From assembly GCA_023264635.1 (NCBI GenBank), contig JAHFLT010000016.1, forward strand, positions 1 to 33,130: DNA of 33,130 nucleotides, read 5' to 3'. The notes beneath the pieces are model-generated. The model saw only the letters and a list, made by a program, of their open reading frames with translations. It ran no database searches and was not told the origin of the DNA. The DNA comes from Candidatus Woesearchaeota archaeon (GTDB lineage: Archaea; Nanobdellota; Nanobdellia; Woesearchaeales; JAGVYF01). Numbering within the stretch: the first letter of the stretch is position 1; each line of letters begins with the position of its first letter. Of this stretch, positions 9,182 through 28,037 are shown in pieces. Both the position numbers and the translations under genes were made by a program.

Positions 9182-9312
9182 AGCCCCTGGGGAGACTTTC
9201 TCATTGGCGTTCGAAGGTATTATCTCCTTGAGCGCCAATATTTGAACTCCCGACCTGCGGTTCTTTCGATTGTGTTTACGAAACCGCCGCTCCGCCGCTA
9301 AGCTACAGGGGC
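9182..9312 (-). tRNA. tRNA-Thr(CGU) with an anticodon-loop intron and a probable T-loop intron
   Basis: The minus strand gives a perfect 7-bp acceptor stem GCCCCTG/CAGGGGC (9312-9306 and 9189-9183), D arm GCTT-AGCGGCG-GAGC, anticodon stem GCGGT/ACCGC, variable loop AGGTC and T stem GGGAG/CTCCC. The spliced anticodon loop reads TTCGTAA, anticodon CGU. Discriminator T73 and base pairs G1-C72 and C2-G71 fit archaeal threonine identity. Two stretches must be removed to give a normal 72-nt tRNA: 14 nt at 9276-9263 after position 37, bounded by a bulge-helix-bulge (TTCG/CGAA), and 45 nt at about 9240-9196 in the T-loop, itself a hairpin with 7-bp stem ATTGGCG/CGCCAAT. CCA is not encoded. A T-rich terminator follows at 9180-9173. 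Confidence 0.9.
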
Positions 9313-9320
9313 ATAAAATA

Positions 9321-9479
9321 CTATGCCAATTTGGATATGATTTCTTTTTTTGTTGTGAAATGTTTCTGGCATTCGAAACAGATGCAGTGTATTTTTCCGT
9401 TTTCATCTTTCACATAAGTGCCCTTTATCTTCTTCAAAAATAATTCTGTAATGTTCTTCTTGCACAGCTCGCATTTCAT
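9321..9479 (-). CDS. 52-residue zinc-ribbon protein upstream of the tRNA
   Basis: The minus-strand ATG at 9479 opens a 52-residue frame ending TAG at 9321-9323, only 8 nt before the tRNA. It starts MKCELCKKN and later has a CICFECQKHF block, giving two Cys-x2-Cys knuckles (C3/C6 and about C34/C37) around a Lys-rich centre. This is the pattern of a small treble-clef or zinc-ribbon protein, probably nucleic-acid or ribosome associated. CTTTAAAAATC, about 25 nt upstream of the ATG, is a plausible TATA box. The close spacing suggests co-transcription with the tRNA. The family is not recognised. The zinc-binding pattern and start support a real gene despite its size. Confidence 0.68.
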   Translation of the reverse strand: MKCELCKKNITELFLKKIKGTYVKDENGKIHCICFECQKHFTTKKEIISKLA

Positions 9480-9539: not shown

Positions 9540-10103
9540 CTATCCAACAAACAGATTATGTTTTTCCAACCCAGTTAATTCAGCCATAATGCGTTTTACA
9601 ATCGCTTTCTTCGGGTCTGGTAATAGTTTTACGCGGTTCTTCATATCATCTAATGAATCGAATAACTTTTCTTCCCGTGCAGTCAGCACTTCCAGCGTAT
9701 GTTTCTTGCCAAAGCCTGGAATCAGCTCGAGGGAATGCATTCTCATCGTCAATGGCTGCGCCTGGTTAAAGAAATTGATAAATTGCTTTTCATTCTTTTC
9801 TACAATTGTTGTTAAGATGAACTCAAGCTCCTTGCGTGCTGTCTCAGTAAGCCTATCTATTGTCAGCCTGCCTGCAATGTGGTGTATCTTCTCCCGTTTG
9901 CCCTCTCCTATATAGACTTCCTCATACGGTTGCAGAAATATATCCCCTTTGGGGATAAGTTCCAGAAGCAAGAAATACTCTTTTCCGACAGCCTGCGCTA
10001 TTGCTGTTTTCTTATGTGATGGCCTTGTATCAAAAGGGTATCCATTAGGTAAGAAGTCCAAGATAATTGCAAGTTCCTCTTTAACTGGTTTCTTTTGATC
10101 CAT
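9540..10103 (-). CDS. DUF655 family protein (putative nucleic-acid-binding)
   Basis: This is a 187-residue protein of the archaeal DUF655 family, which commonly lies next to rpoF and L21e, as here. The N-terminal part (about 8-75) is OB-like, with ILDFLPNGYPF and LLLELIPKGDIFLQPYE. The C-terminal half contains helix-hairpin-helix-like segments around LELIPGFGKKHTLEVLTAREE, typical of DNA/RNA backbone binding. The ATG at 10103 is preferred over a longer frame because the conserved domain begins right after it and TTTTTATATATC lies about 40-50 nt upstream. The biochemical role is not known; conserved linkage to transcription and translation genes suggests a part in RNA or ribosome metabolism. 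Confidence 0.85.
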   Translation of the reverse strand: MDQKKPVKEELAIILDFLPNGYPFDTRPSHKKTAIAQAVGKEYFLLLELIPKGDIFLQPYEEVYIGEGKREKIHHIAGRLTIDRLTETARKELEFILTTIVEKNEKQFINFFNQAQPLTMRMHSLELIPGFGKKHTLEVLTAREEKLFDSLDDMKNRVKLLPDPKKAIVKRIMAELTGLEKHNLFVG

Positions 10104-27866: not shown

Positions 27867-28037
27867 ACTCTTTCGGCCAGCTTTTTGTCCGTTCGCCTTC
27901 GGCTCACTCCCAAAACCAAAGACGAGCAAAGCTCGTCTTGGTCCAAGAAATTCCAAAAGAATTTCTTTGAAACAAAGAAATGCTCTCGAGCATTTCTTGT
28001 TCACGTTGCTTTGCAACTTTGAACCTGGGAAAAGAGT
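27867..28037. repeat. Paired-hairpin array, copy C, with imperfect terminal inverted repeats
   Basis: The units are ACCAAA-GACGAGC-aaa-GCTCGTC-TTGGT (about 27915-27942), CCAAG-AAATTC-caaaa-GAATTT-CTTTG (27943-27969), ACAAAG-AAATGCT-ctcg-AGCATTT-CTTGT (27972-28000) and GTTGC-ttt-GCAAC-TTTG (28005-28021). The same grammar as copies A and B applies, in two pairs, but with a 2-nt link instead of the TTTCCC spacer. The outer ACTCTTTCGGCCAG (27867-27880) and CTGGGAAAAGAGT (28025-28037) are imperfect inverted repeats. No flanking duplication is apparent. Confidence 0.72.

Follow-up and report, generated by a model that had tools for sequence, protein, structure and literature searches.

The locus at positions 9182 to 9312 of the window (the whole 33,130-nt stretch of woesearchaeotal DNA analyzed here) raises the question of whether a tRNA gene interrupted in both its anticodon loop and its T-loop is genuine and, if so, where the T-loop insertion came from and which enzyme would remove it. 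The initial annotation, made from the sequence alone, had proposed a tRNA-Thr(CGU) gene with two introns, one of them in the T-loop. The source genome (G000) comprises 1.316 Mb in 46 contigs and is 96% complete. The features of the locus are as follows.

9182..9312, minus strand: tRNA-Thr(CGT) gene with two introns, mature form 72 nt including discriminator U (sequence, ARAGORN on the spliced form, orthologues)
9277..9312, minus strand: exon 1, positions 1-37, with the anticodon CGT at 9280-9278 (sequence; ARAGORN on the spliced form)
9263..9276, minus strand: intron 1, 14 nt, site 37/38 after A37, AACACAATCGAAAG (fold and comparison with G001)
9241..9262, minus strand: exon 2, positions 38-59, whose 3' end is T-stem/T-loop GGGAG TTCAAA (sequence)
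9196..9240, minus strand: intron 2, 45 nt, T-loop site 59/60, TATTGGCGCTCAAGGAGATAATACCTTCGAACGCCAATGAGAAAG, a member of the R1 family (75.9 bits)
9182..9195, minus strand: exon 3, position 60 to the discriminator, TCTCCCCAGGGGCT (sequence, orthologue comparison)
about 9312..9479, minus strand: zinc-ribbon-like small ORF with CxxC..CxxC, 52 aa (translation)

RESULTS

Removal of two introns restores a tRNA-Thr(CGT)

The stems of the tRNA were read directly from the sequence: acceptor GCCCCTG/CAGGGGC, anticodon stem GCGGT/ACCGC, and T-stem GGGAG/CTCCC. The intact locus scored only 15.6 bits against the Rfam tRNA model, and ARAGORN called no tRNA genes in the whole window with the introns in place. 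Deletion of the T-loop intron in silico resulted in a call of tRNA-Thr(cgt) with a 14-nt anticodon-loop intron. The 45-nt T-loop insertion is read as an intron because its removal restores a clean tRNA and because orthologues show empty sites. Thus, sequence, spliced ARAGORN call, and orthologues agree with the gene that the initial annotation had proposed; its sizes (14 nt at 37/38, 45 nt at 59/60, and a 72-nt mature tRNA) were exact, and the strand, left unstated there, is minus. A search for another tRNA-Thr(CGT) gene, which had been suggested as a check, found none in the 96%-complete genome.

A 52-aa small protein with a CxxC...CxxC pattern, encoded at window 9479-9321 on the minus strand, ends just upstream of the tRNA gene, and this zinc-ribbon-like ORF and the tRNA are possibly carried in one transcript; in G001, a genome of the same genus, a similar coding end also precedes tRNA-Thr(CGT). 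The relatives of the neighboring protein (window 9540-10100, minus strand) are almost all from Woesearchaeota, the best being 81% identical (MAG NC_groundwater_1391).

Structures at the splice junctions

The T-loop intron contains a 7-bp hairpin, ATTGGCG/CGCCAAT, and a 3-bp central helix, TTC/GAA. The fold of the T-arm with this intron had an energy of -23.3 kcal/mol (z = -4.98), and none of 200 shuffles was equally stable. The junction is near the canonical bulge-helix-bulge, with 3-nt bulges and a four-position central helix in which the fourth position is an A.A mismatch; the centroid fold leaves the 3-bp central helix open. The 14-nt intron at 37/38 has the central helix TTCG/CGAA, a 3-nt 3' bulge, and a 10-nt loop, without an inner helix, and is, as modeled, a bulge-helix-loop variant rather than a canonical bulge-helix-bulge. 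All three helices had been described correctly from the sequence. The accompanying suggestion that a relaxed endonuclease would be needed is supported only in part, as the T-loop junction is near-canonical and the bulge-helix-loop occurs at 37/38. When the short T-loop introns of the Met, Ala, and Val tRNAs were folded one sequence at a time, the fold did not by itself show the central helix; the case for this helix is made by comparative alignment.

T-loop introns across the host genome

At least 13 of the 35 tRNA genes located in the source genome carry an insertion at 59/60, a lower bound because several expected isoacceptors are among those not located. The carriers are Thr(CGT), Gly(GCC), Pro(TGG), Arg(TCG), Lys(TTT), Glu(TTC), Pro(CGG), Met(CAT), Ala(TGC), Val(CAC), Ile(TAT), Asp(GTC), and Leu(CAA); ARAGORN isotypes are unreliable for genes that also have an anticodon-loop intron, and the isotypes of multi-intron genes were read by hand. 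The introns range from 21 to 383 nt, and several of those outside Thr(CGT) have unrelated sequences. Their boundaries are TTCRAA on the 5' side and mostly (T)GAAAG|T on the 3' side, so that exon TTCR and intron YGAA pair as a central helix between two 3-nt bulges. The host had been taken to be DPANN-like, which holds (Woesearchaeota); the further expectation that T-loop introns would be exceptional there does not, given at least 13 tRNA genes interrupted at 59/60 and a transposing family that extends across the order.

Several other interruptions were observed. The T-loop introns of tRNA-Pro(TGG) (C42:21237-21571, minus strand) and tRNA-Glu(TTC) (C3:18501-18883, plus strand) are 336 and 383 nt long and 77% mutually identical, and they hold repeats dispersed at approximately 22 places in the genome, one of which is window 27907-28033. 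tRNA-Lys(TTT) (C10:6573-6640 region) has an apparent D-loop intron as well as its T-loop intron, and a D-loop intron is apparent in tRNA-Arg(CCT) (C16:50795 region). Apparent T-stem introns occur in Gly(TCC) and Arg(CCG), and an apparent variable-loop intron occurs in Phe(GAA), all with provisional boundaries. The initiator tRNA-Met (C23, minus strand) has an apparent long, complex insertion in the anticodon region and is called SeC by ARAGORN.

The T-loop intron belongs to a family, R1

A whole-gene search of 145 relatives returned Thr genes together with many matches at other loci to the T-loop intron part alone. Homologues of the 45-nt intron were found in T-loops of many isoacceptors in at least 20 other genomes, and they share the consensus TATTGGCGCC(C/T)GAAG...CTTCGAACGCCAGTGAGAAAG, here called R1, in the T-loops of many different tRNAs. 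In a 10-row MAFFT alignment (A1), the inner helix is conserved, and the conserved letters of R1 reach the apical stem CGAAG/CTTCGAA, beyond what a bulge-helix-bulge requires.

A covariance model of R1 matched 61 of 288 relatives (E<=0.01; this count includes the weakest matches, taken by E-value alone, and tRNA hosts were assigned from strong matches). At E<=1e-5, 28 of 371 genomes sampled from the phylum matched, including 5 from other orders of the class. The strong matches inspected lie in the T-loops of Ala, Arg, Asn, Cys, Gln, His, Ile, Leu, Lys, Phe, Pro, Ser, Thr, Trp, and Val tRNAs, all at 59/60, a site toward which the model is biased by the T-stem that it contains. Standard pairs make up 97.8% of the pair cells in an alignment of 56 copies, both sides change in 14 of 21 pairs, and covariation is 0.428, versus 0.191 in shuffled alignments and at most 0.113 with a slid partner; this alignment was fitted to the model and hence favors it, and the unfitted alignment A1 behaves alike. 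R1 introns are mostly 29 to 96 nt long, with the apical part shortened (introns of 29 to 36 nt) or enlarged (91 to 96 nt). The T-loop introns at two loci of G218 and in G245 have apical-loop inserts of approximately 50 nt that leave the splice motif undisturbed.

Rfam searches of the tRNA-Thr(CGT) locus and its relatives matched no known RNA family to the intron. A group I or other catalytic intron was rejected on the basis of the length of only 45 nt and the lack of a match to Rfam catalytic introns.

Recent gain and precise copying

Comparison with related genomes showed that occupancy of the T-loop site varies. The tRNA-Thr(CGT) gene of G001 has the 37/38 intron at the conserved position and lacks the T-loop intron, and the gene of G002 (same family) has the exact empty site GTCGGGAGTTCAAATCTCCCC. 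For tRNA-Ala(GGC) the situation is reversed, with the site filled in G001 and empty in the source genome between near-identical exons. Parsimony favors a gain of the Thr T-loop intron in the lineage of the source genome. Two further differences were seen within these genomes. A T-loop intron interrupts tRNA-Val(CAC) in the source genome and in G001 alike, and only the G001 copy is recognizably R1; the non-R1 intron of the source genome may represent replacement or fast decay. In G002 (C2:20700-21250), the 5' part of tRNA-Thr(CGT) is present a second time, as an incomplete copy upstream of the intronless gene.

Nearest relatives were determined for 50 introns from 23 genomes after chance locus matches had been filtered out. 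For 18 of the 40 introns from multi-copy genomes, the nearest relative is in another tRNA of the same genome, compared to a mean of 2.3 and a maximum of 9 in 1000 label shuffles. In G168, G218, and G221, different tRNAs share near-identical introns. A Ser tRNA and a Gln-like tRNA of G168 contain an identical 46-nt intron, and two tRNAs of G218 carry a 91-nt intron with 95% identity between the copies. In each of these two pairs, exon identity extends over only 2 nt per side. Near-identity of introns with so little common exon indicates precise copying or insertion and speaks against ordinary gene conversion, with its long tracts. Some of the within-genome similarity could nevertheless have arisen by ancient duplication or by gene conversion instead of transposition.

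We therefore conclude with high confidence that the locus is a tRNA-Thr(CGT) gene with two splicing-endonuclease introns, the T-loop one being a copy of a site-specific transposing bulge-helix-bulge family.

Splicing enzymes of the source genome

Searches with PF01974, PF02778, and a 16-row Woesearchaeota EndA profile (E<=10) each found one EndA gene in the source genome. It encodes 176 aa with both the N and C domains, and its active-site residues Y112, H122, and K153 are invariant. The closest structures are the Nanoarchaeum equitans catalytic chain 3iey_A and Methanocaldococcus jannaschii 1a79. The protein has neither a crenarchaeal nor an ARMAN-specific loop and is not a three-unit polypeptide. 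The initial annotation had pointed to a heterotetrameric or epsilon2 enzyme; what was found is a single gene for an EndA apparently of the alpha type, an alpha4-like single-subunit enzyme that, judging from gene content, would form a homotetramer. No beta subunit was found in the source genome or in single-contig relatives. EndA matches occurred in 129 of 140 relatives, nearly always as one gene; second matches include a few fragments and some full-length proteins (e.g., G036 and G127). G011 (single contig, 100% complete) combines one EndA with the R1 intron family. An RtcB gene is present in the source genome. A search of viral contigs for EndA found nothing.

According to published reviews, alpha4 and alpha2 EndA are strict for the canonical bulge-helix-bulge, and lineages rich in introns or with noncanonical introns have alpha-beta or epsilon2 enzymes (PMC4033280, PMC4090602). 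The source genome does not fit this pattern, unless a diverged partner was missed. The T-loop junctions, being near-canonical, take some of the force out of this conflict; the 14-nt intron at 37/38 has a noncanonical junction.

A heterotetramer with a highly diverged beta subunit would resolve the conflict; it would change the enzyme and leave the identity of the introns as it is. N. equitans has split tRNAs and a heteromeric EndA built of two proteins, the catalytic chain of which is the closest solved relative of the woesearchaeotal enzyme. Alpha-beta enzymes are also usual in intron-rich archaea (PMC4090602). However, each of the three profiles found one gene even at E<=10, and the 16-row profile also found one gene in relatives assembled in one to three contigs, including the intron-carrying G011. 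Furthermore, the beta subunit of N. equitans is detectable from the source EndA at 1.7e-13, so that a comparable beta should have been seen. We regard a hidden beta subunit as unlikely, if still worth reckoning with.

Other explanations of the T-loop insertions

The insertions might instead persist by shielding the 3' halves of tRNAs from integrating elements through loss of the attachment site, or they might be remnants of integration. tRNA genes are the usual targets of integration, and a protective role has been proposed for archaeal tRNA introns (PMC3293823). However, neither an integrase nor an element end was seen in or beside the tRNA-Thr(CGT) gene, and the copies are small, structured, and precisely placed; on these grounds an integration remnant was rejected. 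The intron 3' consensus, searched as one exact 20-nt pattern, had no match in viral contigs, and with this pattern and the EndA search no viral carrier of the intron emerged. Protection would also account for why the introns are retained without altering what they are, and we give this explanation a low probability.

Old, vertically inherited introns at a permissive site could resemble each other through the constraint of the bulge-helix-bulge, which fixes UUC/GAA and the bulges, and not through movement. That all T-loop introns occupy one site, and that several in the source genome are unrelated in sequence, would agree with such a history. It is strongly disfavored by the conservation through the apical stem, which the bulge-helix-bulge does not need; by the clustering of copies by genome and their varying presence inside one genus; and by the identical 46-nt intron in two different tRNAs of G168.

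Sequence conservation in excess of the splice motif could also be expected if the excised or circular intron functioned as a small RNA, but the apical part is freely shortened or enlarged and Rfam returned no match, and we consider such a function very improbable. Finally, a pseudogene or an assembly error, which a tRNA interrupted twice might bring to mind, was rejected as exceedingly improbable because all arms pair, many genomes show this same architecture, and the search for a further Thr(CGT) gene came up empty.

DISCUSSION

A proposed path for intron insertion and removal

For the transposing R1 family, the gene architecture, the family itself, its covariation, the precise copying, and the enzyme genes were observed directly; we infer that cleavage and ligation occur and that the family is active today, and the route by which it transposes is likewise inferred. 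In the proposed mechanism, a small noncoding R1 intron would insert precisely between T-loop positions 59 and 60 (TTCRAA|...GARAAG|T), within a stretch common to nearly all tRNAs. Intron and exon would then rebuild the splice motif, consisting of the T-stem, the 3-nt bulge AG|U60, the central helix UUC(R)/(N)GAA, the bulge A58 A59|U, and the intron helix UAUUGGCG/CGCCAGUG. Cutting of both bulges by EndA and joining of the exons by RtcB would then yield an ordinary tRNA. Copying is precise to approximately 2 exon nt, and candidate routes are reverse splicing into a tRNA with subsequent conversion back to DNA, or an event at the level of DNA.

Since any UUCRAAU T-loop would supply one half of the motif from the exon side and the intron would bring its counterpart, R1 should be excisable from almost any tRNA, which would explain its spread through most isoacceptors. 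The T-loop is the best-conserved stretch of tRNAs; an intron that is splice-competent nearly everywhere would do limited harm on insertion, and its spread would be favored. We lean toward a broader view, in which site-specific, minimal mobile tRNA introns are still active in Woesearchaeota, with the universal T-loop providing one half of the splice motif and a homotetrameric, single-subunit EndA processing the introns. If a single-subunit EndA does handle mobile T-loop introns, the rule that limits intron spread to heteromeric or epsilon2 enzymes would be wrong.

Relation to known intron systems

A close parallel exists in Thermoproteales, whose tRNAs carry transposing introns (Fujishima et al. 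2010, MBE 27:2233, via PMC4033280 and PMC4090602); there, introns of similar sequence occur in diverse tRNAs at noncanonical positions. Several introns per tRNA and bulge-helix-bulge junctions are further common features. The present system differs in its woesearchaeotal (DPANN) host, in the location of R1 at 59/60 in every copy examined, and in the EndA, which is (alpha-beta)2 in Thermoproteales and apparently of the single-subunit alpha type here. ARMAN (Micrarchaeota), likewise ultrasmall archaea, have tRNA introns at varied positions and an epsilon2 EndA, a three-unit protein of roughly 395 aa (PMC12397907), in contrast to the 176-aa single unit without the ARMAN-specific loop. In Asgard archaea, Atabeyarchaeia and Freyarchaeia share with Woesearchaeota many noncanonical and multiple tRNA introns outside Thermoproteota; the available portion of that report describes no conserved transposing T-loop family and no EndA type (PMC11291895). 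Within the broad DPANN branch, comparison with N. equitans is instructive in view of 3iey_A. Its catalytic chain has a KGKRSER insertion, in the loop before the catalytic histidine, that is absent from the woesearchaeotal EndA; no beta was found here, and the tRNAs examined are interrupted in cis, not split.

Noncanonical tRNA introns were already known from ARMAN, Thaumarchaeota, and Asgard archaea. The literature searched, which was mostly open access, yielded no account of either T-loop introns or transposing introns in Woesearchaeota. What is apparently new is intron transposition in a DPANN lineage, at one fixed site and with an apparently single-subunit enzyme. These introns extend transposing tRNA introns to DPANN archaea and open the accepted association of EndA subunit type with intron position to a direct test. 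Recent intron gain is clear from empty and filled sites in one genus and from near-identical copies with 2-nt exon overlap, and copying of that precision constrains how tRNA introns move. Because ARAGORN misses genes with T-loop introns, as in the window, some DPANN genomes have probably been scored as lacking tRNAs that they have.
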